Below are positions 8,219 to 61,385 of a stretch of DNA of 64,000 nucleotides, in pieces; position 1 is the first letter of the stretch; each line of letters begins with the position of its first letter. Source of the DNA: Branchiostoma floridae (taxonomy: Eukaryota; Chordata; Leptocardii; Amphioxiformes; Branchiostomatidae); contig NC_049992.1 in the NCBI RefSeq assembly GCF_000003815.2, positions 4,274,998 to 4,338,997 on the forward strand, read 5' to 3'. The translations under genes and the position numbers were made by a program. The notes below the pieces were generated by a model, which saw only the letters and a list, made by a program, of their open reading frames with translations, made no database searches and was not told where the DNA came from.

Positions 8219-8624
8219 CATAAATTATGAATAATTAATTATAAATGTAACTTAAACTTACACAGGATCTTAATGATATAGATAAACAAGTTTGGTTTAG
8301 CAATAAAACTATGAAATCCCACAATTCAAACTGGAATTAGCAAATTTGGTAAAATATGCCCTTCAGAAACCCGTTGCCATGGCAACACAAAAAATCGGAA
8401 ACTAAAATTTTTTTCGCAAAATTGTTGCTAACAATATTTTAGGAAAAGTCACCAAGTTTCGTAGTCCTAGCACACTTCCTTCAGCAGTTATAAGACGTCA
8501 AAGTTGGCGCGGGCACTTTTAGCGGTAAAAAAATTCACAGAAGACTTTCTTTTCTGCATTATAAAATGTTTAATAAATAATTATGTGTTTTTCACATACT
8601 TGTTTTCTTATCATCATTTTAGAG

Positions 8625-9636: not shown

Positions 9637-9736
9637 NNNNNNNNNNNNNNNNNNNNNNNNNNNNNNNNNNNNNNNNNNNNNNNNNNNNNNNNNNNNNNNN
9701 NNNNNNNNNNNNNNNNNNNNNNNNNNNNNNNNNNNN
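9637..9736. other. assembly gap, 100 N
   Basis: Ends the zinc-finger array. PSMD2 exon 10 begins only 86 bp to the right on the other strand, so this gap is a candidate misjoin. Confidence 1.
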
Positions 9737-9737
9737 G

Positions 9738-20707
<10,970 letters not shown>

Positions 20708-30899: not shown

Positions 30900-32731
30900 C
30901 TAGAGAACGGCTATGCTGACTTCACACACATAATAATAACTACCGGTGATTGGCTCATCGTTCCACTTGTAGCCATAAGTATTTTTCCAAAGAGCACAGT
31001 CTTCACCAAAGTTAGCATTGTCAGGTTGCCCTGGATACCAGTTGCTCCAGCCGGTGAGCAGCGTCCCGTCCTCCCACACAAATGTTCCCTCCTGGGCCAG
31101 GTCCGTCAGGCCGAACCAGGCGTTCGAGCCATCGTGGTACCTGGTCAGCTGGTTGACCAGGAAGTTGTTGGTTGCCACGTCTTTAGGCATAGCCAGGAGC
31201 CCGCCGGCAGCCTGACATGCGGACCTGGCGTCGGAGTAGTTCTTCTGGTCGCTGGAGAATTTGAAGCAGCTGTCCTGGAACTTGGCATAGCCGCTGGGAC
31301 AGGCTGGGTTCTCAGGACAGACCGTGCCTGGTTGTGCGGCATCACGTCCATCTCTTCCTGGCTGACCTGTACCATCTCGCCCCGGTAGGCCGTCTCTCCC
31401 CGGAACCCCAGGAGGTCCGGGCGGTCCCTGCAGGCAGCCTGAGAACATACAACTTGATGATAGTCACAACTTCTTTGGGCAGTCGCGTTAGGTTAGGCAT
31501 TTTGGTTTCTCCCTACCTTTTTTTTTTCTAAATATCATAATCTAGTCTTGCTCTCAGGGACTGGGGATTACCTAAACGGACGATATTGATCTTACTTCGT
31601 GTATTTCTATAAATCTGTTCATCTCATTTAGCCCTTTTTCCTGTTATGCGTAGGTAGCCGAGTTTGGTGTACGCAGGGAAAACCGTAATACATTGTGAAG
31701 CGTACAAATTTTGCGTGATTGCCTTACTTGATTTTAGTGTAATACGTAGGGTGTTCTTTGAATTCAGTGCACGTGTATTCTGACTATAACCCCCCCCCCC
31801 CCCCTACAAGTACACCTTATTCATCATCTAGCCTGAAAAACATAACTACCCCAGTTTGCCCTGCGAAGTATAGAAAAAAGGTACAACACCAAAAACAAAC
31901 TCACTTCCAAAGGGCATGGTGACGCTATTGGCGGACCTTTTTGACCGGTGGTAGTTCTCTTTCCCAGTCAAGCTCTCCTTCCCTGGGTCTGCCTCGGTAT
32001 CACCATCCGGGCGCTAAAACCAGACGAGCAGGAAGTCATTATCGTGTGACGCAAGGGTTGACACCTACGCCTTTGTTGTTGACCAGCCAAACTGATTGTT
32101 TTCGTGGAAATGTCTGTCCGATTAGAAGAAACTTTGAATGTCCTCTTATCAAAGAGACGAGAAAATGGCAGACAGCCAATAATGTCGATATTGCAGTCAC
32201 CATTGAACCAAGTGTCCACAATGACTACTGTAAATGCATTTAGGTGCGTGGGGATTTAATTTCGCGGTAGCCGGAAAAAGACTGTTCGCGGCCGGTGGTT
32301 TTAAGTTCGCGGTAGCACCGTGCACTGTAGTCTCTTACTGCCATGTTCTCGTTAAATTTGCAACGCGAAAACCGCCAACATAAAACCACGGCAAGTTCAG
32401 AGTGTCACATTGAAACTTGCAGAAATTCTTCCTTAAAACTTTTAAGCGTTCAGATATAAGTGCAATAAAGTACTGTTGATAATGTTAAGATCTGAGAAGA
32501 CAATTTCTACGGACTCACCTTGGCGTCCTGAAGATCTGCAAAGTCTGTGCCGTCCGGAACTGCTTCCTTGTGACGCAGTTTTGTTTCCTGGAGTTCTGAT
32601 CTCAAGTTCCTCACCTCCAGAACGACCACCACCATTGTTACCATGGTAACAATGCTTAGAACGCAGACAGCCATGGCAACAACTGTCGTGAACCACCCAT
32701 ATTTGGGTGCAGAATGCTTAAAAGGTAACAT
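30900..32731 (-). CDS. type II membrane collagen-lectin COL1 (QPD-type CTLD, one cysteine missing)
   Basis: Exons 32731-32519 (71 residues), 32013-31905 and 31438-30900; phases 0 and 1; 286 residues. The start MLPFKHSAPKYGW is shared by all four paralogues. Residues about 14-39 are one hydrophobic span without a typical cleavage site, so a type II anchor is likely; a charged helix VRNLRSELQETKLRHKE follows. Exon 2 contains ENYHRSKRSANS, a furin-type RSKR site. Exon 3 starts with about 12 Gly-X-Y triplets (GPPGPPGVPGRDGLPGRDG, with a GTG break) and then a CTLD with GQPD (galactose-type) and WND. After WND the usual Cys is absent (WNDEPITG), leaving the inner disulphide unpaired. An AATAAA lies at 30635-30630 on the minus strand. 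It lies downstream of SEC3 on the same strand, as COL2 follows SEC4. Confidence 0.9.
32225..32395. mobile_element. short DNA element fragment in COL1 intron
   Basis: Begins ACTGTAAATGCATTTAGG, followed by GGGGATTTAATTTCGCGGTA and, near the other end, GCGAAAACCGCCAACATAAA, a partly inverted arrangement. ACTGTAAATG...CGCGG elements are common short inverted-repeat elements in marine invertebrates. The right end is worn and no target duplication is visible. Confidence 0.4.
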
Positions 32732-33589
32732 TTTGTCAGACCGTCGGAGGCCACAGCTTAGTGCAGTCAGTGCTTCAACCCTGACAGTGCAAGTCTGCTG
32801 TTGACGTGGTAGCGTTGAGTTGATAAACAGCTTTAAGTTACTCACAGTCAGGTGGATCTACCAACAACATTTGACCTTTAATTGTCCATGAGACTCTCTT
32901 CCCTAAATGTCACGTTTGTTTTACTGGTATAGTAAGCTTAGCTTGAATATAATCGCGCTCCTAAAGTTGTCACCTGCCGCCACCTCTCGGGAAGGGGGAT
33001 TGTTTGTTTGTTTGTTTGTTTGTTTGTCATTAACCCCAACCAGCGAGAGCTTGTGTAAACACAGGCTGATAATAAACCTATGTGCCCTGAGTTATAATCT
33101 CAGGGAAGGGTCAAGGTTGAAATTATAGATCATTTATCGAAAGCATAATTTTTGCTCATACAAACGTCCGAAGAGACCATTTGTCCAACTGTATAAGACG
33201 TCGAATTTGTCACTGTGACCAAATCAACTCTTTGGTTGGATATTGGTGACAGATTAAGACATTAGACATCAGTAAATATCATATTATTGTTAAAATGATA
33301 ATCATGAAGGGATATGTCTATGATTATAAGTTGTTTTGTAGCTTGTACATTTACGGAGACGGAAACCTCTTGTCTGCCATGCGGGAGAGAGTCGTGTGGG
33401 GGCATTTCATGCTGCAACGTTAACAGATGAAGTGATCTGAACTTGCCGATATGGCCTGAGCTTCCACCTCTGTGTGACTTTGTGCAATACTCTCATGTAA
33501 CTATGAACTCATGTGTATATTATGTTATGTGTGTGAGCTTGCCTGAGGAAACAAATTGTTGCATTTTTTAATCATATATGTCTCCTTGG

Positions 33590-33870
33590 TGACGCCAAGG
33601 TGGTCAGGTTGCAAGCTGGCGATGTGGTTAAGGATGTGGACTAAGAATCTAAATGTTCTAGCTCAAATCGCCAGCAGGCCCGAATGTATTACCTATTTCC
33701 TAACTTGGTTATTAGAGAGGTGTTTGAGAACTACCGCATCTCGAGCTCGTTAAAGATCCAACCACGCATATCGAAAAGAGTATGGGCCCATCCCAGTGTG
33801 AGTTGATCAAACCTTCCAGTTGGTCTTGAGCAGCTGGTACTTACGTGCTAAGCATTAAGGTGGTTTACTG
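33590..33870 (+). mobile_element. probable tRNA-derived SINE
   Basis: AAGCTGGCGATGTGGTTAAG, GTGGACTAAGAATCTAAATG and CTAGCTCAAATCGCC resemble a worn tRNA head. GTTAAAGATCCAACCACGCA and GTGAGTTGATCAAACCTTCC form the body seen in other copies at 27764 and 39540. Boundaries are approximate. Confidence 0.45.
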
Positions 33871-34548
33871 TTTATTCGAAACAAACGGAGATGTGACCCC
33901 GCTGATTTAGTGTACTTCACAGTGGCCACACTAAATTTGTATTTGTGACATTGACTCATTTACTTAGTGGGGCAGACTGAAAATATTGCGATGATGCATG
34001 CACAATAAGACAGAGATCATTACTGGTAAACTTTGCTTTATTTCTAGTCACGGGAAAGACGTACACGTCTGCATCAAATGTGCAAATATCACTTTTACAT
34101 GCCCACATTCCCATCTGCCCCAACCTGTTACGATTATACTTGACTGAACTGAAGTTACACTTAGTACCTTAGTACAAACGTAAAATGACATAGTTTGAGA
34201 GTCGGGTCCCTGAAGCTTCAAGACTATCTCTTTTGTCTGGAACCATAAACCATACACCTCAATCTCTGTACTCAATGTAAGTCATTAGCAGTGAACCTGT
34301 ACTGTACTACACGTTTATAATCCATTCTGACCCTACCTATGAAGATTATTATTTTGCTATTTACCTAAGCTGTAGATAAACTTAGATAGCTTGTTAGATA
34401 GAATGAACTCACAATGAAAGTCCTTATATCTATGTCAAACACCGAGAAAATGGTTTTGTCTAGGTAGGACAAAATCACACCAAACTGACAGAATTCAATC
34501 TCCTTACTCGTTGTTGGTTATGACCAGTGAAGGTATACTTGACTTCGG

Positions 34549-36206
34549 CTAGGGAACAGCTGCACTGACTTCACACACATAATATTTACTAAAGGAGCAT
34601 GGAATATCGTTCCACTTGTAGCCATAGACGTCTCTCCACTCAACACAGTCCTCACCAGAGCCACCATCGTCAGGTTCCCCTGTATACCAGTCAGACCAGC
34701 CGGTGAGCGCCGTCCCGTCTTCCCACACAAAGGCTCCCTCATCTGCCTGATCTGTCAGGCCGAACCAGATGGAGCCAATGGAGTACCTGGTCAGTTGGTT
34801 GACCAGGAAGTTGTTGGTTGCCTGGTCCTTAGGCATGGCAAGACGCCCACCGAGAATTTGACAGGCAGACCTGGCACCAGCGTAGTTCGGCCGGTCAGTA
34901 GAGAAGCTGAAGCATCTGTCCTGGAACTTGACATAACCGTTGGGACAGGCTAGCTTCTCATGGAAAGCTGTGCAATGGAATGAATTGTTTTAAGGAGCGG
35001 CTGGCATATTCAAATGAAATGCTTTAGAAAAAAATCTACTTTTTTGGCACATCGTTGCTGGTTTGATTGTTTTCCTGTGAACAGTTTTTGTAATTTTCTT
35101 GTACTGTGTTTGCCTTGGCCAAAGGAACCTGATGACGTTTGCGACCATACTGTAAATCGTAAAAAGAGAAGTTGCAAAATGAGTAAATATATGCCATGGT
35201 TTAAAAACAATATCGAATAATGGTATTCAATTGTCTCTTTTCCTTATCGTAGGATGGCATCGCTTAGTAATACTCGATACCCCATATGCGCGCATGGTGG
35301 CCAAGACACTCTGCTCCACTCATTTGCATACATATCAGGAGATTCTTAGTAAGCAAGCACTTTGACCTTTCCATTCTTTACTATCACACCAGCACGGTCC
35401 GTACCGTAAAGGTTAACAAGACACAAAAGGAAACCTGAGAATATGCACCAGCAGTGGTATGCAGGTCAACTTTGTTCACTATNNNNNNNNNNNNNNNNNN
35501 NNNNNNNNNNNNNNNNNNNNNNNNNNNNNNNNNNNNNNNNNNNNNNNNNNNNNNNNNNNNNNNNNNNNNNNNNNNNNNNNNNCTACAGCTACTAGTGTCC
35601 TATACGCGTACCTGGTACAGCGACAACTGTTGACAACGACCGTTCTGTTCGTCTACCTTTTCGAAACGTGATCAACATTTCTAGGCCGCCAGTGCATCGC
35701 ACCTAGATTTCATCATAATTTCTGGGCATATAAGACTCGCCTTGTTTAAGGAGCGCTACTTCTCCTGTCAGATTCCTGACCTGTTCCTCCAACTCTGCCA
35801 GCCGAACGTCCTGGAGTACAACAGAATTTAATCAAATATTAGTTTCTCGATATGAGCTTGCCCATGGCCACTTGAATTTGAAAAGACGTTCTACATAACG
35901 TGGACTTCACTTATAGCTTAATCTCCCATTCTCCCACTAGGAGAGATACCGCATACAGAGTACATACAGTTAAACAACGCGTAATTCACTTTACTAGCCA
36001 CGATAATTCACCTAACTGTTCAATATACAGAGCAGTGAACAATGACTCACAATTCCAAACTTCTGTTCTAAGGACAGGTCTTTCTAGAGGCGTGCAAGCT
36101 TGGTCCGCGGGAAATAAAGGGATAATAAGGGGATACAACTCGCACCTGGCTGGTTCCCGTCTCGTCGCTTTCCCCCTGCTTGTCCCTGTCGTTGTGAACA
36201 TGAATG
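34549..36206 (-). CDS. secreted C-type lectin SEC3 (EPD-type CTLD), first exon cut by gap
   Basis: Exon 1 is visible from 36206 down to its donor at 36146 (the signal-peptide part lies in the gap 36207-36306). Exon 2 is 35810-35741 (neck, LAELEEQVRNLTGEVALLK) and exon 3 is 34967-34549 (138 residues plus stop). The CTLD starts AFHEKLACPNGYVKF, has six cysteines, WFGLTDQADEG, GEPDDGGSGEDC and WNDIPC. EPD replaces EPN or QPD, so sugar preference is uncertain. The neck exon is followed by GCGAGT, which needs a GC-AG intron; the copy at 41090 has the same donor, while SEC1 and SEC2 have GT. The protein is identical to the last part of SEC4 in the opposite orientation. A family poly(A) signal lies at 34042-34037. 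Confidence 0.85.
35483..35582. other. assembly gap, 100 N
   Basis: Between the SEC3 CTLD and neck exons, near the centre of the inverted region. The inverted partner near 41250-41330 is continuous, and the same segment elsewhere carries a decamer array, which may have caused the break. Confidence 1.
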
Positions 36207-36306
36207 NNNNNNNNNNNNNNNNNNNNNNNNNNNNNNNNNNNNNNNNNNNNNNNNNNNNNNNNNNNNNNNNNNNNNNNNNNNNNNNNNNNNNNNNNNNNNN
36301 NNNNNN
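36207..36306. other. assembly gap, 100 N
   Basis: To its left the sequence is a direct copy of 26520-27179 (offset 9027); to its right it is an inverted copy of 25493-26404. A switch from direct to inverted copy across a gap suggests a misjoin at the decamer array. Confidence 1.
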
Positions 36307-37218: not shown

Positions 37219-38669
37219 GGCGCTCCCCTCTAGGGAGAATAAAAGCCACCCAAATACAACAACAACGTTACAATCTTGCCTCATCCTGAAAATGTATAAT
37301 AATCGATATTCATCTACCACCCAATGAATTTTAGTCCTTACTTTCTTATCTGAGTTCCGTTTCTTTGTATTTCGCAGATCTTCAAAGAATGATTTAGCCA
37401 CACAAAAACAACAGCCTGAAACAGCGCTGTAAAAATTTGATAATGTCAAATTCTCGGTAAAATAAAACACGTTTCATAGGCTTCTAACGCCCGCAGTACC
37501 GATTCCTTATATTCTCATTGATTTTGTTTAAGTTTGCTTCATACTCCATTCCTTTTCGTTCCTTTTCGTTCCTTTTCGTTCCTTTTCGTTCCTTTTCGTT
37601 CCTTTTCGTTCCTTTTCGTTCCTTTTCGTTCCTTTTCGTTCCTTTTCGTTCCTTTTCGTTCCTTTTCGATCCTTTTCGCACTTTCGGTACACCGGCGTAT
37701 AGGACACTAGTAGCTGTAGTATAGTTGAAGTTGCCTATACAAGTAGGTTGATACGACTCTTGTATGCATTGCAATGTTATGGGACAAAATAGTGAACAAA
37801 GTTGACCTGCATACCACTGCTGGTGCATATCTTCTATTCTCAGGTTTCCTTTTGTGTCTTGTTAACTTTTACGGTACCGACCGTGCTGGTGTGATAGTAA
37901 AGAATAGGTTTAAAGAGCTTGCATACTAAGAATCCCCTGATATACATGCAGATGATTGGAGCAGAGTCTCTTGTCTGCCATTGGGTATCGTGTAACACTA
38001 AGCGATACCAACACATTTCCATTAGATTTTCCTGCTTAATTCCAACACTTTTTTCATCATGTCCGTTTGCAATAACTTTGGAATATATCAAGGAAAATGA
38101 AACTACTAGTATTGGAGCATGGTCAGAATTTATAACATTTTCGTGTCATCTGAAGAGAAAAGGCCTGCTTTGAGGGCAATAAAAATGGAACAATTATGGA
38201 ACACTGTTGAACATGTTAAGAATATTTTCCATCGCACGATGCTCTGTGATGGCTAACGTATGATTTGCAAGCGATTGACGCAGATAGGCTAACCTATCCG
38301 TAGCTGTATTCTGTATCTATATAGCCGGTATAACCGCCCTTCGGCGTAACACACCAGCTTCGAAGGCACGCGGCGCGGCAGCAGCTGGTTATATTACACT
38401 GAACGACCCGTTACATCTAACTTTTGCACATCTATGATATTGTTGTTAAACCAAGGCAAATATTTACTCATTTTGCGACTCTTTATGATATGGTCGCAAA
38501 CGTCAAGTTCCTTTGGCCAAGGCAACCCCGAGCACAAGAAAATGACAAAAACTGTTCACAGGAAATCAATCAAATCAGCAGTTATATGCCAGTAAAAGTA
38601 TATTTTTCTAAGCATTTCAATAATGGAGACGCCAGCATCTCATTAAAAAAATGTTTTCATTGTACACAG
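37219..38669. other. spacer before orphan CTLD exon
   Basis: Holds the second decamer array (37549-37680) and AT-rich sequence. Near 38325-38390 lies a CCGGTATAACCGCCCTTCGG / CAGCAGCTGGTTATAT segment that looks like a worn repeat. No signal-peptide or neck exon for the CTLD exon at 38670 was found here. Confidence 0.5.
37549..37680. repeat. decamer minisatellite (TTTTCGTTCC)n, copy 2
   Basis: About thirteen 10-bp units, nearly uniform, in the same orientation as 26393-26509. The flanks (GTTTGCTTCATAC before, GCACTTTCGGTA after) also match those of copy 1, so the array moved with its flanks. Confidence 0.9.
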
Positions 38670-40301
38670 GCCGTGAGAATCTAGTCTGTCGAAACGGTTC
38701 TGTCAAGTTCCAGGACAGATGCTTCAGCTTCTCTACTGACATGAAGAACTTCGTCGGTGCCAGGTCCGCCTGTCAGGCTGCCGGCGGGAGTCTGGCTATG
38801 CCTAAGGACCAGGCAACAAACGACTTCCTGCGCAACCAGCTGACCAGGTACCCTAGTGGCTCGGACGCCTGGTTCGGCCTGACAGACCTGGCGCAGGAGG
38901 GAACCTGGGTGTGGGAGGACGGGACGCCGCTCACCGGCTGGAGCAACTGGGCACCAGGGGAACCTAACGGTGGCTCTGCTGAGAACTGTGCCCATTGGCA
39001 CGGTTCGTATGGCTACAAGTGGAACGATCGGAGATGCTCTCATAGTCAGTATTATGTATGTGAAGTTAGTGCGGCCGTTCCCTAGCCTCAAAAAACGCCA
39101 AGTCACTGGTCATAACCTACAGCAAGTAAGGAGATTGAAGTTTGTCAGCTGGGTGTGATTTAGTCCTACCTATACAAAACCATTTTCTCTTTGTGATGAT
39201 ATAAGGACTTTCGTAGTGAATTTATTCTACCTGTTCACCAAGCTATCAAAGTGTACCTGTAATAAAGACTTTAAGTTATATAGTCAAAGAATAATATTGA
39301 CAGGTGGGTCCAAAGGAATGTAAAACGTGATATTTACCCTTTTGATGGATATGTAAGCTAGCATGTGAATAGAAATAATGCCATGTTAACCAGTAATGGT
39401 TTCTTTCTTCTTGTACAGCTTTACAGTTCCACTTACACAATGGGTACATTTTAAAAATCCAAAGCATCTTTCCCATCCAAAGTTTATCTGGTTATTGTTG
39501 GATACAATGATACAACTTGGTACCATCTTTGTCTGCGAGGCAGAGCACTTAAGTACAAAGTGCTTAATACCGGACTGGAAGACTTGATCTACTCACACCG
39601 GTTGGAGCCATACTATTTTCTGTGTGTGTTGTTGGATCTTTCAAGAAACAATAGTCACCTCTAAGCCGAGCGCCTGTATAGTACATGTAGCAGAAATTGG
39701 CTCATTTGCAACTTCTTAAATAAACAGTTGAACAAGAAGAATAGTGTTGCCTTTCTTTCATGGGTCAAGACCTACCAACAACGCAAATACGTAGGTTAAT
39801 CTTTCAAAGTATCTGAGGCATAGGGACATTTAAGGACAGCAGGGCCGAGCTTCGGAAGGCGTTAAGCTTGTGAGGTTGGTAACTATGATAAAATTTGTAC
39901 AGGCTATTGACCTTAATGCTGAATACTACTGTACAAATTGCTAAACAATACCGGTAGTCTAGAGTTACCAGTGCTGGGCTTCAATGGTTTACAACTTCAC
40001 ATGGCATTGTACTGACCACGTCAACAACAAGGATATCAAGTGTCATTTCCTTGTGGGACCGCAACGTTGTAGACGAAAATACTTCTTAAATCTCTCTGCA
40101 CCGAACTTCGAAGGGACCATGGGTGCGAATGTGGTGATCGTGGCCGCTGCTGTGCTGATGTTGACCATCCAGACTTCAGGGCAGCCGACCTGGGACTGTT
40201 CCGGTCCGAGGACCGAGGAGAAGTGTGTGTGCAGCCCTGTCATTCATGTCCACAACGACAGGGAGAAGCAGGAGGAAAGCGACGAGACGGGAACCAGCCA
40301 G
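38550..40301. repeat. right arm of inverted repeat IR2
   Basis: Reverse complement of about 27119-28850, holding the SEC5 CTLD exon, a spacer with a SINE tail (39540-39645) and the SEC4 signal-peptide exon. Confidence 0.85.
38670..39085 (+). CDS. secreted C-type lectin SEC5, CTLD exon only (EPN type)
   Basis: An AG acceptor at 38668-38669 opens an exon that reads RENLVCRNGSVKFQDRC, then 137 residues to a TAG. Six cysteines, WFGLTDLAQEGTWVWEDG, GEPNGGSAENC and WNDRRC give a complete mannose-type CTLD. It is the inverted partner of the SEC2 exon (28316-28731) but differs by several residues (DMKNFVGAR for DTKNYAGAR; NWAPGEPN for NWYPGEPN), so it is a diverged allele or paralogue. No upstream exons are present between 37.2 and 38.67 kb; they may have been lost at the assembly join. 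A plus-strand AATAAA is at 39261-39266. Confidence 0.82.
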
Positions 40302-42228
40302 GTGAGTCTTAGTTAGAGTTTTTATATCCCTTGAGTTTTTATCCCTTTATTTCCCCCCGGCCAGGCGTGTACGGCTCTAGAAAGACCTGTCATTAGAACA
40401 GAAGTTTGGAATTGTGAGTCATTGTTCATTATTGCTCTGTATATTGAACAGTTAGGTGAGTTATCGTGGATAGTAAAGTGAATTAGACGTGTTTAACTGT
40501 ATTTATGTCATACCTGTGACGCGAAAACGTTCGATACGGGTGTTCCGGCCGGGCCATAACTTCCGTATCGCACAGGTTCGAAAGGCGTATCACACGGGCT
40601 CAATTTAAATAAATCGAACTGTTTCGAGCGGGCCGAGTGCGGTGCCATCGAAAGTTCGAATACCTGATTCGGACGTTGGAATATTACTGTTGCAACACTT
40701 TTTGTTCGAAGGCACCAAATTTGTTCAACGTCTGGCGCATTTCGCATCAAAACAAGGGTTTTCTCAGGTGGGTATGACATAAATAAAATACAATACGGTG
40801 TATTCCGCATCACCCTCTGTCCAAGCCCTCCCGCTGATACGGAATACACCGTGTTGTATTCTATATGTACTCTATACGCAGTATCTTTCCTAGTGGGAGA
40901 ATGGGAGAATAAGCTATAAGTGAAGTCCAAGTTATGTAGAACGTCTTTTCAAATTCAAGTGGCCATGGGCAAGCTCATATCGAGAAACTAATATTTGATT
41001 AAATTCTGTTGTACTCCAGGACGTTCGGCTGGCAGAGTTGGAGGAGCAGGTCAGGAATCTGACAGGAGAAGTCGCGCTCCTTAAACAAGGCGAGTCTTAT
41101 ATGCACAGAAATTATGATGAAATCTAGGTGCGATGCACTGGCGGCCTAGAAATGTTGATCACGTTTCGAAAAGGTAGACGAACAGAACGGTCGTTGTCAA
41201 CAGTTGTCGCTGTACCAGGTACGCGTATAGGACACTAGTAGCTGTAGTTGCCTATACAAGTAGGTTGATACTCAAGACTCTTGTATGCATTGCAATGTTA
41301 TGGGACAAAATAGTGAACAAAGTTGACCTGCATACTCTCAGGTTTCCTTTTGTGTCTTGTTAACCTTTACGGTACGGACCGTGCTGGTGTGATAGTAAAG
41401 AATGGAAAGGTCAAAGTGCTTGCTTACTAAGAATCTCCTGATATGTATGCAAATGAGTGGAGCAGAGTGTCTTGGCCACCATGCGCGCATATGGGGTATC
41501 GAGTATTACTAAGCGATGCCATCCTACGATAAGGAAAAGAGAAAATTGAATACCATTATTCGATATTGTTTTTAAACCATGGCATATATTTAGTCATTTT
41601 GCAACTTCTCTTTTTACGATTTACAGTATGGTCGCAAACGTCATCAGGTTCCTTTGGCCAAGGCAAACACAGTACAAGAAAATTACAAAAACTGTTCACA
41701 GGAAAACAATCAAACCAGCAACGATGTGCCAAAAAAGTAGATCTTTTTTCTAAAGCATTTCATTTGAATATGCCAGCCGCTCCTTAAAACAATTGATTCC
41801 ATTGCACAGCTTTCCATGAGAAGCTAGCCTGTCCCAACGGTTATGTCAAGTTCCAGGACAGATGCTTCAGCTTCTCTACTGACCGGCCGAACTACGCAGG
41901 TGCCAGGTCTGCCTGTCAAATTCTCGGTGGGCGTCTTGCCATGCCTAAGGACCAGGCAACCAACAACTTCCTGGTCAACCAACTGACCAGGTACTCCATT
42001 GGCTCCATCTGGTTCGGCCTTACAGATCAGGCAGATGAGGGAGCCTTTGTGTGGGAGGACGGGACGGCGCTCACCGGCTGGTCTGACTGGTATACAGGGG
42101 AACCTGACGATGGTGGCTCTGGTGAGGACTGTGTTGAGTGGAGAGACGTCTATGGCTACAAGTGGAACGATATTCCATGCTCCTTTAGTAAATATTATGT
42201 GTGTGAAGTCAGTGCAGCTGTTCCCTAG
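40119..42228 (+). CDS. secreted C-type lectin SEC4 (signal peptide, neck, EPD-type CTLD)
   Basis: Exons 40119-40301 (61 residues: signal peptide MGANVVIVAAAVLMLTIQTS, then a three-Cys segment), 41020-41089 (neck DVRLAELEEQVRNLTGEVAL) and 41810-42228 (CTLD plus stop); phases 0 and 1; 223 residues. The CTLD has the long-form six cysteines, GEPDDGGSGEDC and WNDIPC. The donor after the neck exon is GCGAGT, so a GC-AG intron is needed. Intron 1 contains two inserted foldback elements (40503-40782 and 40788-40859) that are absent from the matching introns at 27.0 and 36.0 kb. It probably forms secreted trimers; ligand unknown. Poly(A) signal at 42740-42745. COL2 follows on the same strand, the same order as SEC3-COL1. 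Confidence 0.9.
40503..40782. mobile_element. 280-bp inverted-repeat element in SEC4 intron 1
   Basis: Ends TTATGTCATACC and GGTATGACATAA are inverted. The homologous introns at about 26910 and 35940 read straight from GTACTC to GTTTAACTG-type flanks without it, which is direct evidence of insertion. The body holds several TTCGAA-centred palindromes. Confidence 0.75.
40788..40859. mobile_element. 72-bp foldback adjoining the previous element
   Basis: ATACAATACGGTGTATTCCG and its near-complement ending GTGTTGTAT form a hairpin with about 25-bp arms. It too is absent from the homologous introns, so it was inserted with or next to the 280-bp element. Confidence 0.6.
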
Positions 42229-43903
42229 CCGAAGTCAAGTATACCTTCACTGGTCATAACCAACAACGAGTAAGGAGATTGAATTCTGTCAGTTTGGTGT
42301 GATTTTGTCCTACCTAGACAAAACCATTTTCTCGGTGTTTGACATAGATATAAGGACTTTCATTGTGAGTTCATTCTATCTAACAAGCTATCTAAGTTTA
42401 TCTACAGCTTAGGTAAATAGCAAAATAATAATCTTCATAGGTAGGGTCAGAATGGATTATAAGCGTGTAGTACAGTACAGGTTCACTGCTAATGACTTAC
42501 ATGGAGTACAGAGATTGAGGTGTATGGTTTATGGTTCCAGACAAAAGAGATGTAATAGTCTTGAAGCTTCAGGGACCCGATTCTCAAACTATGTGATTTT
42601 ACTTTTGTACTAAGCTACTAAGTGTAACTTCAGTTCAGTCAAGTATAATCGTAACAGGTTGGGGCAGATGGGAATGTGGGCATGTAAAAGTGATATTTGC
42701 ACATTTGATGCAGATATGTACGTCTTTCACGTGACTAGAAATAAAGCAATGTTTACCAGTAATGATCTCTGTCTTATTGTGCATGCATCATCGCAATATT
42801 TTCAGTCTGCCCCACTAAGTAAATGAGTCAATGTCACAAATCCAAATTTAGTGTGGCCACTGTGAAGTACACTAAATCAGCGGGGTCACATCTCCGTTTG
42901 TTTCGAATAAACAGTAAACCACCTTAATGCTTAGCACGTAAGTATCAGCTACTCAAGACCAACTGGAAGGTTTGATCAACTCACACTGGGATGATCACTT
43001 CATCTGTTAGGTTAACGTTGCAGCATGAAATGCCCCCACACGACTCTCTCCCGCATGGCAGATAAGAGGTTTCCGTCTCCGTAAATGTACAAGCTACAAA
43101 ACAACTTATAATCATAGACATATCCCTTCATGATTATCATTAAAACAGTAATTTGATATTTACTGATGTCTTAATCTGTCACCAATATCCAACCAAAAAG
43201 TTGATTTGGTCACAGTGACAAATTCGACGTCTTATACAGCTGGACAAATGGTCTCTTCGGACGTTTGCATGAGCATCTTAGAAAAATCATGCTTTCGATA
43301 AATGATGTATAATTTCAACCTTGACCCTTCCCTGAGTTTATAACTCAGGGCACATAGGTTTATTATCAGCCTGTGTTTACACAAGCTCTCGCTGATTGGG
43401 GTTAATGACAAACAAACAAACAAACAAACAAACAAACCCCCTTCCCGAGAGGTGGCGGCAGGTGGCAACTTTAGGAGCGCGATTATATTCAAACTAAGTT
43501 TATTATACTAGTAAAACAAACGTGACATTTAGAGAAGAGAGTCTCATAGATAATTAAAGGTCAAATGTTAACCAGATCCACCTGACTGTGAGTAACTTGT
43601 TTGTCAACTCAACATTGCCACGTCGACAGCAGACTTGCACTGTCAGGGTTGGCGCACTGACTGCAGTAAACCGCACCAAAATGCGACAAAATGCTACCTT
43701 CTAAGCATTCCGCACCCAAATATGGCTGGTTCACCACAGTTGTTGCCATGGCAGCCTGCGTTCTAAGCGTTGTTACCATGGTAACGCAGGTGGTGGTTGT
43801 TCTGGAGGTGAGAAACTTGAGATCAGAACTCCGGGAAACAAGACTGCGTCACAAGGAAGCAGTTCTTGACGGCGGAGATCTTGCAGAGCTTCAAGACGCC
43901 AAG
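41020..43903. repeat. right arm of inverted repeat IR3
   Basis: Reverse complement of 32519-35810, covering the SEC4 neck and CTLD exons and the COL2 first exon. It lacks about 360 bp present in the left arm. Confidence 0.88.
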
Positions 43904-45771
43904 GTGAGTACGTGAGTCCATAGAAATTGTTTTCGCAGATCTTAACACCAGCTTCAACTTAATTGCACTTATATCTAAAGGCGTTGAGGTCTTAAGGAAG
44001 AATTTCCTCAAAGTTTCAATACATGTCAATATGACGTTGGGTTTGGGGGCGTGTCAGATGCCATAATGTACCACATGAAACATCTAAGGCAACGGAATTG
44101 CCATCTATATATTTACGTGGTTACTTGTACGAACACAGCGCTTGTAAACTTTTTCGAGGAATATTGATGTCTTAACACATATATTCTAGACAAGCCTTAT
44201 TGCTGTCAGGGGCTGGCTGGGCCCCTTCCCTGAGGGGTTTGACTCCAATGGAAGGGATAATAGAAGCGTGTGTAGTACTACGTAGTTTAGTCAGCAGACA
44301 GTTTTTCTTGCCTAACAACGATACCATACTCGTACCTAAGTATTTGCATTCGAGGATCCCCGTTTACTTCTTGTTCTTGCTCTTGTGTAAATACTGGGTA
44401 ACATCCCTTAGTGTTGGGGCTTTCCACTCAGGGCGATCCACTCATACTTGCCATGAAACTTCATGGTGAAGTTCGAAAATCCACTCAGCCAAAACTTTAC
44501 ATTTTATGTAGTCATAAAATTTTCTCTTCAAGTTGAACTGAGGACATTCTAAGATTCTTCTTAACAAGCGTACAGTTCCACGAAAACAATCTGTTTGGCT
44601 GGCATGGCCCATGTAACAACAAAGGCGTATATGTCCACACTTTCCTCACACGATAATGACTTCCTGCTCGTCTGGTTTCAGCACCCGGAGGGGACAGGCT
44701 CTCATGGTGACATCATCGAGGCACAGCACCCTGGGAAGGAGAGCTTGACTGGGAAAGAGAACTACCACCGGTCAAAAGAGGTCCGCCAATAGCGTCACCA
44801 TGCCTTTTGGAAGTGAGCTTGTTTTTTTGTGTTGTCTTTTTTTCAACGTTTCAAGTACACCATGCGTTGTTCAGGCTGGGCAATGAGACGAAATGAAAAG
44901 AAATTAAATGGATAGACTGGAATAAAATAAAACAAAATAGAATAGGACGAGTGTGATAAGAATAGTTAGCTCAGTTCAACATCAGTTTTAGAGCATTACG
45001 GGTAGATAAGCATAAAAGTAAAAATACACCTGCTGGGCGACCTCGAATAACTCACATAGACCAGCTTGCTCGTAATGTGGGGTTGCGGGTCGAGGACATA
45101 AAGAACGTTTTGAGGGACAGAGCTGTCTGGAAAGAAAGAGTGGACCTGGTCATTAACTTAGTGACATGTCAGAAGAAGTTCCCCACCAATCGGACAATAA
45201 CGACAAACATTTTTATTCTGTGATCTATAAAGGCTGCCTTCAAGGATCCCCTGGGATTCCGGGGAGGGATGGTCTACCTGGCGCAGCCGGTTCACCGGGG
45301 CGAGACGGCCAGCCAGGAAGAGATGGACGCGATGGGCAACCAGGCACAGTCTGTCCTGGGAGCCCAGTCTGTCCCAGTGGTTACGTTAAGTTCCAGGACA
45401 GATGCTTCAAATTCTCCACCGACAAGAAGACCTACGCCGATGCCAGGTCCGCCTGTCAGGCTGCCGGCGGGCACCTGGCCATGCCTAAGGACCAGGCAAC
45501 CAACGCCTTCCTGGTCAACCAACTGACCAGGTATCCCAGTGGCTCCAACGTCTATTTCGGCCTGACGGACCTAGCCCAGGAGGGAACCTTTGTGTGGGAG
45601 GACGGGACGCCGCTCACCGGCTGGAAAAACTGGTCACCAGGGCAACCTGACGATTATAGATCTGTTGAGGACTGTGCTCATTGGTGGGGTTCGTATGGCT
45701 ACAAGTGGAACGATCGGTCATGCTCTGATAGTGATTATTATGTGTGTGAAGTCAGTGCAGCCGTTCCTTAG
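43691..45771 (+). pseudogene. type II membrane collagen-lectin COL2 (QPD type) with a one-base frameshift
   Basis: Exons 43691-43903 (71 residues, TM anchor as in COL1), 44682-44812 and 45233-45771 (collagen and CTLD). The second exon is 131 bp where COL3 and COL4 have 130: GGTCAAAAGAGGTCC has one A more than GGTCAAAGAGGTCC. The frame shifts at the RSKR site and reaches TAG soon after, so the furin-type site, collagen and lectin parts would not be made. The third exon is nevertheless fully open, with GXY repeats (GIPGRDGLPGAAGSPGRDG), six cysteines, GQPD and WNDRSC. The extra base sits in a run of A, so a sequencing error is quite possible and the gene may be sound. The acceptor of exon 3 is AAAG, weaker than CTCAG in paralogues. 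Confidence 0.75.
45032..45171 (+). mobile_element. LINE 3' fragment (C-terminal tail of reverse transcriptase ORF)
   Basis: Reads AGRPRITHIDQLARNVGLRV, then EDIKNVLRDRAVWKERVDLV in one frame. A GRPRxTxIDQL...DRxxWKxxV pattern is the usual C-terminal end of non-LTR retrotransposon polyproteins. Only this short end is present, in COL2 intron 2, just upstream of the collagen-CTLD exon. Confidence 0.65.
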
Positions 45772-46971
45772 CCCCACAAATGTCAAGTAGAAGTTGGCTG
45801 GCCATGACCTACAGCGAGTACAGAGATTGAAGTTGGATATGATTTAGTTCCAGACTAAAAAGATGTGACAGTTTTGAATTTTATAAAGCTAATTAGGGAT
45901 ATTAAACGATCTTTAAATTGGTGTTCATTTTACCTTTGTATCAGCGTGTAAAGAGATTGCATTTTGTCAGTTTGTGTGACTTATTCCTAGCTGGACAAAA
46001 CAATCTGTCGGTGTTATAATGATATAAGAACATTTACAGTGTGTTCATTCTATCTTTGTACCAAGCTATCGTTGTGTATTTTCAGTTTAGTTATATAGTC
46101 AAAGAATAGTCTTCATGTGTAGGGTCAGAAAGGAATATAAGCGTGTAGTACAGTAAAGGTTTACTGCTAATGGCCTACAGCGAGTACAGACGAGATGGAG
46201 GTGTATGATTTAGTTCCAGATTAAACGGATGTGGCAGTCTTGAAAAGTTAGGGACCCGACTTTCAAACTGTGTCATTTTACGTTTGTACCAAGCTATACA
46301 AGTATACTTTCAGATTAGTCATATTGTCAAGTATAATCTTAACAGGTGATATTTGCACTTTTGATAGATATGTAAATCGATCATGTGACTAGAAATAAAG
46401 CATTGACATATCCCTCCATGATTATCATAAAACCAGTAATATTTACTAATGTCTAATGTCTTAATTTGTAAACAATATCCAACCACAAAAGTTGATTTGG
46501 TCACCGTAACAAATTCGACGTCTTCTACAGGTGAATAAATGTTCACTTCGGGCATTTGTATGAGCATCTTAGAAAAATTATTCTCATGGTAAATAATCTA
46601 ATTTCAACCTTGACCCTTCCCTGAGTTTATAACTCAGAGAACATCTTAGGTTTATTATCAGCCTGTGTTTACACAATCTCTCGCTGGCTTGGGTTAATGA
46701 CCCCCTCCCCGAGAGAGGCGGTAGTTGGCAACTGAAGGGCCGGCCGCTAGGGGCGCGATTTTAGTCAGGCTAGGTTTGTTATCACTAGCAAAACAAACGT
46801 GACATTTAGAAAAGAGAGTCTCGTGGATAATTATAGGTCAAATGTTGTTGGTAGACCCACCTGACTGTGAGTAACTTAAAGTTGTTTGTCAACCCAACGC
46901 TGTCACGTCGACAGAAGACTTGCACTGTCCGACTGCACTAAACTGTCACTGGTCTTCGAGGGTCTGACAAA
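45772..46971. other. spacer between COL2 and COL3 with internally repeated 3' flank
   Basis: A block with CCTACAGCGAGTACAGA, TTTAGTTCCAGA and GTACCAAGCTAT recurs about three times (near 45805, 45945 and 46170), so the 3' flank has been duplicated in place. The family poly(A) signal GACTAGAAATAAAG is at about 46388-46401. No exon. Confidence 0.6.
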
Positions 46972-49157
46972 ATGTTATCTTCTAAGCATTCTGCACCCAA
47001 ATATGGGTGGTTCACGACAGTTGTTGCCATAGCAGCCTGTGTTCTGAGCATTGTTACCATGGTAACGCAGGTGGTGGTTGTTTTGGAGGTGAGGAACTTG
47101 AGATCTGAACTGGAGACAAAACTGCGTCACAAGGAAGCAGTTCTGGGCGGCGGAGGTCTTGAAGAGCTTCTGGACGCCAAGGTGAGCAAGGGTCCCACAG
47201 AGACTGTCTGCTCATATGTGAACAACAACCGCAATTCTTCGTTGTACTTATATCTTAACGCTCAAAGGTCTCCAGGTAGCCCTTCTCTATGCTTCACTAT
47301 AAATTCCGCTCTTCTTGCTACAGTATTTATACACATGGGTAAACATCAGTACTAAAGTGACAACTCGGGTTATGGGCCTTACCAGACGTCAATGTGGCGC
47401 AATACCAAAACACTTTTTACTTGCCTAACAATGCTTACACGCGTGATTATTTCCATTCTAGATGACCCCACTTTATTCCTCCATAAAATTCAAGAGTCAC
47501 GTTTGGAAAAGCCACTCAGACGAAACTTTATGTTGAACATGAATGCAAACGAATTGTGACGGTACTAACGGCAGCCTGTGGTAGTCCACTGGGCGACCAC
47601 GTATAGACCACATTGGCCTCTGTCTCACTCCTTCACTTCTCAATTTTCTTTAAATCTCTTTTCCTTGAAACTTTTCTTTGTTTCTATCTTGAGCAGAATA
47701 AAACAACAACAAAAAGTATTCATACTGGATACTTGATACAATAAATTCAGCATGCTTATTTTAGATGTCTGCAATTTTCTCTTCACTTTGATTTTAGGAC
47801 ATTCTAAGTTTCTTCTAAACACAAGTCTGTTCCACGACAATAGTCAGTTTGCCTGACCATTGTGACCCATGTAACAACAAAGGCGTACGTGACCACACAG
47901 TCGTCAAACGATAATGACGTACTGCCCGTCTGGTTTCAGCGCCCGGAGGGGACAGGCTCTCATGGTGACATCATCGAGGCAGAGAGCCCTGGGAAGGAGA
48001 GCTTGACTGGGAAAGAGAACTACCACCGGTCAAAGAGGTCCGCCAATAGCGTCACCATGCCCTTCGGAAGTGAGCTTGTTTTTGGTGTCTTGTTATTTAG
48101 GACAATGAGTAGTGTTTGAAGGGGGGGGGGGGGGAGACAACGATTTACGCTGAATTCCGAGGAACCCCTTACGTTTTACGCTAAAATAGAGGAAGGCAAT
48201 CACGCAAAATTTGGTCGCCTGGCAACGAATTATTGGAAATTACTTCAAAACGGCTTTCCCTATTGCAATGAAGCCAGACTGTTTACGCAAAGGGGCATGA
48301 AGGCTATTAATTAGATGTAATGACAATAAATATGTTAGGAATACAAAGAAATAAGATGAGAATCGTTCTTTTAGATCACCCTTAGTACCCTTAGTCCTAG
48401 GAAATAAGAGTAGACGAGGGTATAAAGAAATAGCTATATAGAATAAAACCAAATGGATTGTCCAAAGAAGTTTAATATCGGACAATCAATGACAATTTGT
48501 ATGTTCTCAGGCTGCATGCAGGGACTACCCGGACCTCCTGGTGTCCCAGGGAGGGACGGGCTACCGGGAAGAGATGGTCAGCCGGGCGCAGCCGGTTCAC
48601 CGGGGCGAGACGGGTTACCAGGCATAGCCGGTTCACCGGGAAGAGACGGCCAACCAGGAAGAGATGGACGCGATGCCGGACAACCATGCACAGCCAGTTC
48701 ATCGGGAGGGGATAGACACGATGGGCAACCAGGCACTGCCTGTCCTGGGAACTTAACCTGTCCCAGCGGCTACGTTAAGTTCCAGGACAGATGCTTCAAA
48801 TTCTCCACCGACAAGAAGAACTACGCCGATGCCAGGTCCGCCTGTCAGGCTGACGGTGGGCACCTGGCTATGCCTAAGGACCAGGCAACCAACGACTTCC
48901 TGCGCAACCAATTTACCAGGTACACCAGGTTCTCCATCTGGTTCGGCCTGACAGACTTAGTCCAGGAGGGAACCTGGGCGTGGGAGGACGGAACGCCGCT
49001 CACCGGCTGGACCAACTGGTTTCGAGGGCGACCTGACGATCATCAATCTGCTGAGGACTGTGCTGAGTGGAGAGCAGAGTGGAACTACAACTGGAACGAT
49101 ATGTCATGCTCTCTTAGTCAGTATTATGTGTGTGAAGTCAGTGCATCTGTTCCCTAG
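46972..49157 (+). CDS. type II membrane collagen-lectin COL3 (longest collagen stalk, RPD-type CTLD)
   Basis: Exons 46972-47181 (70 residues), 47940-48069 (43 residues) and 48511-49157; phases 0 and 1; 328 residues. Cytosolic MLSSKHSAPKYG, a hydrophobic anchor, the helix VRNLRSELETKLRHKE, then RPEGTGSHGDIIEA and ENYHRSKRSANS with an intact furin-type RSKR site. The collagen part is the longest of the four (about 20 triplets of GRDG/GLPG/GSPG type, ending in an imperfect ASSSGGDRHDGQPG stretch). CTLD: long-form cysteines, GRPDDHQSAEDC in place of EPN/QPD, and NYNWNDMSC in place of GYKWND. The altered motif could reduce or change sugar binding. Intron 1 is almost identical to that of COL4 over about 750 bp, so the two duplicated or converted recently. 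Confidence 0.92.
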
Positions 49158-51064
49158 CCCCGCAAACGTCAAGTATAACTTCACTGGTCATAACCTACAG
49201 CGAGTACAGAGATTGAAGTTTGTAAGTTGGGTATGAGTTTGTTCCAGACTGAAAAGATGTGGAAGTCTTGAATTTTTTTTAGCTAATCAGGGATATCCTA
49301 CGGAATTTTGAATGGTGTTTATTTTACCTTTTTACCAGCGTGTAAAGAGATTGATTTTTTGTCAGTTAGTATGACTTATTCCTAGCTGGACAAAACAATC
49401 TGTCGGTGTTATAATGATATAAGGACTTTCACAGTGAGTTACGAAGCTGTCCAAGTGTATTTTTAGTTTAGTTATATAGCAAGAGAATAACCTTGGTAGG
49501 TAGGGTCAGAAAGAAATATAAACGTGTAGTACAGTACAGGTTTACTAATGGCCTACAGCGAGTACAGAAATTGAGGTTTATGATTTAGTTCCAAACTAAA
49601 CGGATGTTATAGTCTTGAATAGTTAGCCAAGGCCAGACCTTCAAACTTCAATCTTACTTTTGTACCAAACTATCCAAGTGTATTTCAGTTTAGTTATATA
49701 GTCAAGTAACTTTTTTTTATAATCTTAACAGGTTAGCCTGGAATCCAGCCGTATTATAGCTCCCGAGTCTCTTCTGTCCTCTCCGCAAATACGGAGAGAG
49801 ACTCGGGAGCTATAATACGGCTGGATTCAAGGCTATAACAGATGGGGTAAGACAGGAATGTCAACGTGATATTTGCACTTTTGGTAGACATGTGAGTTCA
49901 TCATGTGACTAGAATAATAAAACAGTGTTGATCAGTGATGGTTCTTGTGCATAATTGCAATATTTTCCATTCTGTCCCACTTACCTAATGAGTGCATTTT
50001 GTAAAGCCAAAGTATCTTTCCACTCCAAAGTTTCGTGGCCACGGTAAGATACTCTAGTGCAGCTGGATAACATCTTCGTTCTAAGGTTTAGAATTAGATG
50101 GCAACACAACAACACATTAGCAACGACACAGTCAGGAACCTTACTAGCCAATCTATCCACAAGACAATTTAGATTCTTTGTCCCTAACACTAAATTGATA
50201 CCTGACCACCATGACGTCATTTAAGAGGTAGATACGTCAGAAATGTAACAATGTGTTTCTTTAATCAGGAGACAATCTCACACACATTACATGATATACA
50301 CATGAGTTAATGGATACTTGACAATATTTCACAAAGTCACAACACACGAACCACTGTGCTTTGATATTGGTAGAAGCTCAGGCCATATTGTCAAGTTCAG
50401 ATCACCTCACCCGTTAGGTTACAGCATGAAATGCCCCCTTACGGCTTTCTCACACATGGCAGACAGAGGTCTATCTAGGTAAATGTACAATCTACAATAC
50501 AACTTATAATCATAGACATGTCCTTTAATGATTATTATTAAGACAGTAGTACCCTATTTACTGAAGCCTAATGTCTTAATCTCCCAACAATACTTACTAC
50601 AATAACCATCCAAATTTGATTTGGTCACTGTAAAAAATTCAACGTCTTATACAGGTGGACAAATGTTCTCTTCGCACATTTTTATGGGCTTCATAGAAAA
50701 TTAGGCTTATGATGAATAATCCATTTTCAACCTTGACCCTTCCATGAGTTTATACCCCAGGCACAAAGGTTGTGTTTACAGAATCTCTAGCTGGCTGGGA
50801 TTAATGACCCCTCCACGAGAGGAGGCGGCAGGTGGTAATTGCCGCTAGGAGCACGATTTTAGTCAGGCTAGGTTTATTATTACTAGCAAAACAAACGTGG
50901 CATTTAGAGAAGATGATCTCATGGACAATTAAAGGTCAAATGTTGGTAGACCCACCTGACTGTGAGTAACTTAAAGTTGTTTGTCCACCCAACACTGTCA
51001 CGTCGACAGCAGCCTTGCACTGTCAGACTGCACTAAACTGTGGCCCTTTCGACTTTCTTACAAA
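49158..51064. other. spacer between COL3 and COL4
   Basis: Holds the same 3'-flank blocks as after COL2, a 102-bp snap-back insertion (49734-49835), and further right the upstream-region blocks shared with COL1-COL3 (CTTGACCCTTCC, ACCCACCTGACTGTGAGTAA). No exon. Confidence 0.6.
49734..49835. mobile_element. snap-back element with perfect 32-bp arms
   Basis: 49741-49772 and 49797-49828 are perfect reverse complements (GAATCCAGCCGTATTATAGC and on); TAGCCTG/GGCTA ends extend the stem with one mismatch. The loop contains a second small hairpin (CTCCG...CGGAG). The empty site is seen in paralogous flanks near 42655 and 46340, where AACAGGT runs on without it; AACAG occurs on both sides here. Confidence 0.8.
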
Positions 51065-53207
51065 ATGTTACCTTCTAAGCATTCTGCACCCAAATATGGG
51101 TGGTTCACGACAGTTGTTGCCATGGCAGCCTGTGTTCTGAGCATTGTTACCATGGTAACACTGGTTGTGGTTGTTCTGGAGATGAGGAACTTGAGATCAG
51201 AACTTGAGACAAAACTGCGTCACAAGGAAGCAGTTCTGGGCGGTGGAGATCTTGAAGAGCTTCGGGACGCCAAGGTGAGAAAGGGTCCCACAGAGACTGT
51301 CTGCTCATATGTGAACAACAACCGCAATTCTTCGTTGTACTTATATCTTAACGCTCAAAGGTCTCCAGGTAGCCCTTCTCTATGCTTCACTATAAATTCC
51401 GCTCTTCTTGCTACAGTATTTATACACATGGGTAAACATCAGTACTAAAGTGACAACTCGGGTTATGGGCCATACCAGACGTCAATGTGGCGCAATACCA
51501 AAACACTTTTTACTTGCCTAACAATGCTTACACGCGTGATTATTTCCATTCTAGATGACCCCACTTTATTCCTCCATAAAATTCAAGAGTCACGTTTGGA
51601 AAAGCCACTCAGACGAAACTTTATGTTGAACATGAATGCAAACGAATTGTGACGGTACTAACGGCAGCCTGTGGTAGTCCACTGCATGGGCGACCACGTA
51701 TAGACCACATTGGCCTCTGTCTCACTCCTTCACTTCTCAATTTTCTTTAAATCTCTTTTCCTTTAAACTTTGCTTTGTTTCTATCTTGAACAGAATAAAA
51801 CAACAACAAAAAGTATTCATACTGGATACTTGATTCATCAAATCCAACACACTTAGATGTCTGCAATTTTCTCTTCACTTTGATTTGAAGACATTCTAAG
51901 TTTCTTCTAAACATAAGTCTGTTCCACGACAATAATCAGTTTTTTTCGTATGACCAGCGGGACCCATGTAACAATGAAGGCGTACGTGCCCAAACAGTCG
52001 TCGTACGATAATGACTTCCTGCCCGTCTAGTTTCAGCGCCCGGCGGGGACAGGCTCTCATGGTGACATCATCGAGGCAGAGCAGCCTGGGAAGGAGAGCC
52101 TGACTGGGAAGGAGAACTACCACCGGTCAAAGCGGTCTGCCAATAGCATCACCATGCCCTTTGGAAGTGAGCTTTTTTTTTATGTTGTCCCTTTTTTCAG
52201 TATGTCAAGCAGAGCAACCCGTACGCGTGATCCTCCAATACTAATGCTCTTTAGCCTAGAGAAAGAGGAGTGTTTGTATATGCGAGGGATGGGAGATCAG
52301 ACAACGCTTAATGCTGAATTCAGAAGACCCGCTAGTACGTAATATGCTAAAATCAAGGAAGGCAATCACGCAAAATTTGGCCGCCTAGCTACAAATTACG
52401 TGTATAAGACGGCTGCCTACACCTTGCAGGCCCTAAATGAGATGAAATGGCAACAAAGGATTAGGAAGGAAAGAATTAAGAGCAAGATTGAAAGCGTTCG
52501 TTCATGCCAGCCTCATAAAATATATAATGATGTACGGTGAAAACAAATGATTACTAATACCCAAACACAACTCTCCAAAGAGGTTGTGACTATCGGATAA
52601 TCATTATAAACATATTTGACAATGTGTAATACTATGCAATTTTGTGTTCTGAGGCTGCCTTCAGGGACCACCCGGGCCCCCTGGTGTTCCGGGGAGGGAT
52701 GGTCTACCTGGGAGAGACGGTACCGGTCAGCCAGGCGCAGCCGGTTCACCGGGAGGGGATGGACGCGATGGGCAACCAGGCACAGCCTGTCCTAGGAGCT
52801 TAGCCTGTCCCAGAGGTTACGTTAGGTTCCAGGACAGATGCTACAGCTTCTCTACCGACAAGAAGACCCAGGACGCTGCCAGGTCCGCCTGTCAGGCTGC
52901 CGGCGGGCACCTGGCTATGCCTAAGGACCAGGCAACAAACGACTTCCTGGTCAACCAACTGACCAGGTACCCCAGTGGCGAGGACATCTGGTTCGGCCTG
53001 ACAGACCTGGCGCAGGAGGGAACCTGGGTGTGGGAGGACGGGACGCCGCTCACCGGCTGGAGCAACTGGTATCCAGGGGAACCTAACGATTCTGGCTCTG
53101 CTGAGGACTGTGCCCATTGGTACGGTTCGTATGGCTACAAGTGGAACGATCGGAGATGCTCTCATAGTCAGTATTATGTATGTGAAGTTAGTGCGGCCGT
53201 TCCCTAG
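51065..53207 (+). CDS. type II membrane collagen-lectin COL4 (EPN-type CTLD, probably converted)
   Basis: Exons 51065-51274 (70 residues), 52037-52166 (43 residues) and 52654-53207; phases 0 and 1; 297 residues. An upstream in-frame ATG at 50981 is rejected because all paralogues start at MLPSKHSAPK/MLSSKHSAPK. Domain order as in COL3: anchor, charged helix, RSKR site (HRSKRSANS), about 12 Gly-X-Y triplets with a GTG break, CTLD. Unlike COL1-COL3 the CTLD has GEPNDSGSAEDC and WNDRRC, the mannose-type motif of the secreted lectins. Its last 100 nucleotides differ from SEC5 by a single base but clearly from COL2 and COL3. It is therefore a chimera by conversion or unequal exchange. A gap starts 13 bp after the stop. 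Confidence 0.92.
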
Positions 53208-61223: not shown

Positions 61224-61385
61224 CTGTAAGAAGTGAAGTATAAGTGAATATAAATAACAAAATACAAATAAACATAAGCCACCAAATGACACAGAAATAA
61301 AACAGAGCATCACAAACAGAAACTTCATGAGGTTAAAATACATGGTATGTTAAAACAAATGAATAATCTCGAACCAACATTCGCC

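Follow-up and report, generated by a model that had tools for sequence, protein, structure and literature searches.

The predicted anchored collagen-lectin genes

We analysed a stretch of 64,000 nucleotides from Branchiostoma floridae (contig NC_049992.1, positions 4,274,998 to 4,338,997; hereafter the window). Four paralogous genes in its central part, G1 to G4, combine exons for an N-terminal hydrophobic anchor, a linker with a furin-type motif, a short collagen stretch and a C-terminal C-type lectin-like domain (CTLD). G1 runs on the minus strand (32731-30900), and G2 (43691-45771), G3 (46972-49157) and G4 (51065-53207) are on the plus strand. The exons (Table 1) were reconstructed and spliced in silico from the genomic sequence. 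The start codons and stops of all four genes matched exactly the coordinates given in a preliminary description of this DNA. The three-exon plan that it proposed was borne out by GT-AG borders at all eight introns, with intron 1 in phase 0 and intron 2 in phase 1 in every gene. The spliced frames of G1, G3 and G4 were open and encoded 286, 328 and 297 residues, respectively.

Exon 1 comprised 70-71 codons and ended in phase 0 at GACGCCAAG, followed by GTGAG. Exon 2 (36-43 codons plus one base) followed TTTCAG or TTTTAG, opened in phase 0 and extended beyond SANS to MPFG(S). It ended with the codons for RSKRSANSVTMPFG and one A, followed by GTGAG in phase 1. The first bases of exon 3, GCTGC, completed the Ser codon and gave MPFGSCLQGPPGPP. 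The motif HRSKR/SANS (the slash marks the predicted cut) thus occupies a small exon of its own. It was kept in G1, G3 and G4, where the order anchor-RSKR-collagen-CTLD held after splicing, and was lost solely in the frameshifted G2.

The G2 lesion was one extra A in TCAAAAGAGG, with a stop four codons after HRSK; exon 3 was nonetheless open. Inspection by eye found no alternative splice site that would rescue the frame. The frameshift could reflect either a real pseudogene or a miscounted A run in the assembly. We also observed an extra out-of-frame ATG just 5' of the G2 start (43680-43694, AAAATGCGACAAAATG), which may be a second sign of an impaired copy.

Table 1. Exons of the anchored genes G1 to G4 and of the neighbouring collagen-free CTLD genes (positions in the window).
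Feature	Position	Strand	Description	Basis
G1 exon 1	32519..32731	minus	MLPFKHSAPKYG; cytosolic start, hydrophobic anchor, charged helix	splice model, tblastn, hydropathy
G1 exon 2	31905..32013	minus	linker with HRSKR/SANS; seven codons shorter than G3 upstream of the site, frame kept	splice model, codon comparison
G1 exon 3	30900..31438	minus	Cys; collagen of ~9 Gly-X-Y triplets with interruptions; QPD-type CTLD lacking one cysteine	splice model, Pfam
G2 exon 1	43691..43903	plus	anchor and helix	splice model, tblastn
G2 exon 2	44682..44812	plus	RSKR codons frameshifted by an extra A; stop after 4 more codons; no intact protein encoded	splice model
G2 exon 3	45233..45771	plus	still open; 12 Gly-X-Y triplets followed by a QPD-type CTLD	splice model, Pfam
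G3 exon 1	46972..47181	plus	anchor and helix	splice model, tblastn
G3 exon 2	47940..48069	plus	linker with HRSKR/SANS	splice model, codon comparison
G3 exon 3	48511..49157	plus	Cys, 17 uninterrupted triplets and a degenerate stretch, CTLD with RPD	splice model, Pfam
G4 exon 1	51065..51274	plus	anchor and helix	splice model, tblastn
G4 exon 2	52037..52166	plus	linker with HRSKR/SANS	splice model, codon comparison
G4 exon 3	52654..53207	plus	Cys; collagen of 13 triplets, interrupted once; CTLD bearing the mannose-type motif EPN	splice model, Pfam
Signal-peptide exon	40119..40301	plus	MGANVVIVAAAVLMLTIQTSG/QP; probably of CTLD 41810-42228 (inferred pairing)	tblastn, hydropathy
Signal-peptide exon	29720..29902	minus	probably of CTLD 28316-28731 (inferred pairing)	tblastn, hydropathy
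Collagen-free CTLD exon	28316..28731	minus	EPN; phase 1 start	tblastn
Collagen-free CTLD exon	34549..34967	minus	EPD; its signal-peptide exon runs into N gap 36207-36306	tblastn
Collagen-free CTLD exon	38670..39085	plus	EPN	tblastn
Collagen-free CTLD exon	41810..42228	plus	EPD; CTLD protein sequence same as 34.5 kb copy	tblastn

The anchor exon

The hydrophobic run encoded by exon 1 spans 28 residues (YGWFTTVV...VVVVL) behind a cytosolic tail of ~12 residues. Its Kyte-Doolittle maximum was 2.4-2.8 over 19 residues, compared with 1.87 for a local signal peptide, and its octanol energies were strongly favourable. The signal peptides of the surrounding cluster have a normal run of 17-18 residues and a plausible cleavage site. 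Judged by hydropathy, the difference in length favours the uncleaved anchor of the preliminary description over a cleaved signal peptide. Exon 1 is also constrained, with a ratio of nonsynonymous to synonymous substitution (dN/dS) of 0.14-0.44.

The furin-type site

RSKR lies 14 residues N-terminal of the first Gly-X-Y triplet in G1, G3 and G4. Exon 2 was 91-95% identical between genes over aligned bases. The 120 bases that begin 20 bases downstream of it were 58-71% identical, and intron 2 was mostly unalignable. Among the 27 codons from PGKES to MPFG, eight were variable in G1, G3 and G4; seven of the eight differences were synonymous, and one exchanged Val and Ile. Three of the silent changes lay inside K-R/S, in its Lys (P2), Arg (P1) and Ser (P1') codons. 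For unconstrained sequence ~22-28% of changes are expected to be synonymous, and at least seven of eight would then arise with P about 2e-4 to 7e-4. The pattern R-X-[KR]-R itself appeared in 5-8% of shuffles of each linker. In consequence, the basic quartet is not convincing when set against chance, and the case rests on the codon pattern. The first part of exon 2, where G1 is without seven codons, was looser.

When exon 1 was joined directly to exon 3, the frame shifted and the product was truncated without a CTLD in all four genes. Every intact anchored collagen-lectin product should therefore carry the site. A membrane form that loses it through skipping of exon 2 was rejected on the same ground.

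Collagen stretch and lectin head

The 12-20 Gly-X-Y triplets previously ascribed to the family did not hold throughout, as we counted ~9 in G1, 12 in G2, 13 in G4, and 17 plus a degenerate stretch in G3. The collagen covers ~30-42 residues in G1, G2 and G4; only G3, with its degenerate stretch, nears 70. The Pfam Collagen cut-off was passed by G2 and G3 only, G1 and G4 staying below it because their helices are short and interrupted. One cysteine precedes the first triplet by three residues and another follows just after the collagen. There is no helical neck, and in G4 six residues lead from the last triplet to the first CTLD cysteine.

The C-terminal CTLD was confirmed in all four genes by Pfam Lectin_C scores of 67-88 bits (cut-off 22.6), and was also matched by a PDB sequence search and Foldseek. 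A long-form CTLD with three disulfides and the EPN/QPD and WND calcium-site motifs is complete by sequence in G2 and G4. G1 is without one CTLD cysteine (WNDEPIT for WNDRSC), and G3 carries the non-standard RPD. When the PDB was searched with the family profile, CL-11 was the best-scoring single-domain chain, closely followed by DC-SIGNR and mincle. AlphaFold modelling of the contiguous exon 3 from a shallow alignment gave a mean predicted local distance difference test score of 54. Foldseek placed DC-SIGNR first for this low-confidence model, which lends weak support to the CTLD fold.

Sister genes and diversification of the heads

Searches with tblastn located a set of eight closely related CTLDs. 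Half of them follow the anchor-furin-collagen exons, and the other four, at 28.3, 34.5, 38.7 and 41.8 kb, have no collagen. Three signal-peptide exons (tblastn matches 27182-27301 and 29783-29902 on the minus strand, and 40119-40238 on the plus strand) read MxxNVVIVAAAVLMLTIQTSG/QP. None was found upstream of the CTLD at 38670..39085. The 34.5 kb gene has a gap of 100 N bases (36207-36306) in its signal-peptide exon, of which only the 3' part, HNDRDKQGESDETGTSQ, is readable. The phase 1 start of the collagen-free CTLD exons is consistent with exon borders homologous to those of the anchored genes. The signal-peptide exons end in phase 0. This mismatch requires another small exon in between, which we did not find.

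The G4 head differed from the collagen-free 28 and 38 kb copies by a synonymous-difference proportion of 0.07-0.10, versus 0.16-0.20 from G2 or G3. In sliding windows its C-terminal half was 89-100% identical to the same two copies. These values suggest that gene conversion or exon shuffling may have swapped heads between the anchored and the collagen-free genes. The CTLD of G4 (52806-53204) and that of the 28 kb gene (28319-28714) gave dS 0.074 and dN 0.085 (ratio 1.16), a pattern that suggests a recent exchange together with diversifying selection. In the sugar-binding loop, 20 of the 21 variable codons changed the residue, as did 37 of 53 in the preceding part of the CTLD. The sugar motif is EPN in G4 and the 28 and 38 kb genes, QPD in G1 and G2, RPD in G3, and EPD in the 34 and 41 kb genes. 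At the codon level, the heads were thus shown to be diversifying and the delivery part to be held constant.

We also observed a large, imperfect inverted duplication (28133-36000 versus 38600-45800) with arms 79-99% alike, in which G1 is the inverted copy. Within it, 34226-35033 and 41744-42551 are 99% complementary. Either a palindromic duplication or mis-assembly of haplotypes could account for the arms.

Elsewhere in the window, a separate group of EGF-like and CTLD exons, unrelated to the first cluster, lies on the minus strand (59549-59707, 61066-61332, 62475-62618 and 63357-63602). An open frame at 8577-9839 encodes several tandem C2H2 zinc fingers and is interrupted by an N gap. The zinc-finger gene and the EGF-like and CTLD exons would suit a cephalochordate genome. 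The minus strand also carries two repeats, one of diverged units in tandem (14470-15370) and one a short tandem repeat that reads KERKGTKRNE many times over (37528-37734).

Discussion

Taken together, the order of domains and the codon pattern support the reading of G1, G3 and G4 as anchored, probably furin-releasable collagen-lectins. We consider it probable (roughly 0.6) that the genes specify small type II membrane collagen-lectins made for release as soluble trimers, with the anchor serving mainly as an assembly device. The uncleaved N-terminal anchor would carry the chain into the endoplasmic reticulum, where the membrane and the juxtamembrane helix may hold three chains together. The collagen would then wind from its N-terminal end, given that no neck lies between collagen and CTLD. 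The two cysteines flanking the collagen sit where they could lock the trimer. A furin-type convertase would cut HRSKR/SANS, a motif for which we observed both the consensus and the constraint, and release a disulfide-linked trimer of chains of 189-225 residues (20-24 kDa) with three CTLD heads. The heads would bind sugars, probably on microbes, in a presumed immune role. Furin is a constitutive late-Golgi enzyme. It would act on the way out of the cell, and the soluble form is therefore probably the main product.

Several observations weigh against this interpretation. The anchor is flanked by charges of +2 before and +1 after, so that the positive-inside rule is nearly neutral; with the charges nearly balanced, the orientation rests on the following collagen, the disulfide-rich CTLD and the N-glycosylation sequons. 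The charged helix reported after the anchor is present, but it is a short helix-like stretch of ~20 residues with a weak heptad pattern and a weak coiled-coil signal. G1 and G4 have short collagen stretches with interruptions, and the gene models are known here from genomic sequence alone. Moreover, the constraint on exon 2 spans the whole half-exon, not RSKR alone, and may serve the linker. It supports a site-bearing linker and is no proof of selection on the four residues by themselves.

The preliminary description suggested a switch between a cell-surface and a soluble lectin. A substantial share of the protein would then stay as a surface receptor, and furin release would be a regulated change to the soluble form. 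Collagens XIII, XXIII and XXV do have membrane-tethered and shed forms, as does COLEC12, of which the soluble form alone recruits properdin. We nevertheless find a switch unlikely here, given that the cytosolic tail holds no recognisable endocytic or signalling motif and no in-frame exon skipping leaves out the site. The sequence gives no indication of regulated release or of a function at the cell surface, and a soluble trimer released constitutively is the better fit.

A stable type II receptor like COLEC12, in which RSKR is an incidental basic patch that stays uncut, would agree with the overall domain order and with the frequency of basic quartets in shuffled basic linkers. It is difficult to reconcile with an invariant furin consensus that has Ser at P1' and silent substitutions inside the motif. 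The site also lies in the linker adjoining the collagen, the position cut in other membrane collagens, and we judge such a receptor quite improbable. Ordinary secreted, collectin-like products with a basic N-terminus would result if exon 1 were a cleaved signal peptide, and an Ala-X-Ala does occur inside the hydrophobic run (VVAMA/A). A cut there would leave ~18 more hydrophobic residues, a run of 28 far exceeds the length of a signal peptide, and genuine signal-peptide exons lie next door; such cleavage is very improbable. Finally, a decaying tandem array of little or no function, as the G2 frameshift, the G1 cysteine loss, and the RPD and degenerate collagen of G3 might indicate, is hardly credible in view of three open frames, intact splice sites, and dN/dS well below 1 in exon 1 and, between intact genes, in exon 2.

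The likeness to transmembrane collagens, ectodysplasin and COLEC12 drawn in the preliminary description was upheld. COLEC12 (CL-P1, CL-12, SCARA4/SRCL) is far larger than the G1-G4 proteins and shares with them a type II anchor (here assigned by hydropathy only), a helix, collagen and a C-terminal CTLD. It has long coiled coils between anchor and collagen, whereas G1-G4 have only the weak helix. Its CTLD is 28-30% identical to those of the family in Foldseek alignments and is not specially close. The soluble form of this type II protein is generated from the cell-bound one (PMC7511233); we found no publication describing a furin site in the part of COLEC12 that separates anchor from collagen. 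A 2012 survey, which asked for a collagenous region of at least 70 residues and overall similarity to known members, found no class A scavenger receptors, including COLEC12, outside vertebrates (PMC3567963). The present genes fall outside these limits and are thus not COLEC12 orthologues by the survey's definition.

In collagens XIII, XXIII and XXV, a furin-like cut falls directly before the N-terminus of the first collagen domain, and ectodysplasin and colmedins such as gliomedin are also shed (PMC7848082). These collagens (the MACITs) agree with G1, G3 and G4 in the type II anchor and in a convertase site just before the first collagen domain. However, they and the nematode COL-99 are built of several long collagen domains, accompanied in the MACITs by conserved non-collagenous regions, and carry no lectin head, in contrast to the single short stretch and CTLD found here. 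Ectodysplasin A and gliomedin have a type II anchor, short collagen and a C-terminal head, and are shed, as we predict for this family; their heads are TNF-like and olfactomedin domains, respectively, instead of a CTLD. The soluble collectins MBL, SP-D and CL-11 similarly place collagen before a sugar-binding-type CTLD, with a signal peptide in place of the anchor. Collectins have an alpha-helical neck between collagen and CTLD, which is absent in this family. On present sequence evidence, the family would function in the manner of furin-shed membrane collagens and looks like a COLEC12 in miniature; membership of either group is not shown.

The build is a new combination of known parts. Our literature searches returned no report of an amphioxus anchor-collagen-CTLD protein or of a furin-cut C-type lectin. 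The novelty is nevertheless smaller than the preliminary description implied: the position of the site and the coexistence of membrane and soluble forms both have the precedents given above. A review counts 66 collectin genes in amphioxus (PMC5794833), and anchor-collagen-CTLD proteins may sit unnamed among its gene models.

It is also possible, although we put this forward only tentatively, that a fixed anchor-furin-collagen cassette and a signal-peptide cassette swap fast-diversifying heads inside a single cluster. The former would then be a furin-released membrane collectin that arose independently outside the vertebrates, and the same sugar specificity would be shipped in two formats. If the genes do encode collagen-lectins made for release, membrane-anchored, convertase-released collagen trimers would have been applied also to pattern-recognition lectins in an invertebrate, which would bear on whether the design of vertebrate COLEC12 is inherited or convergent.

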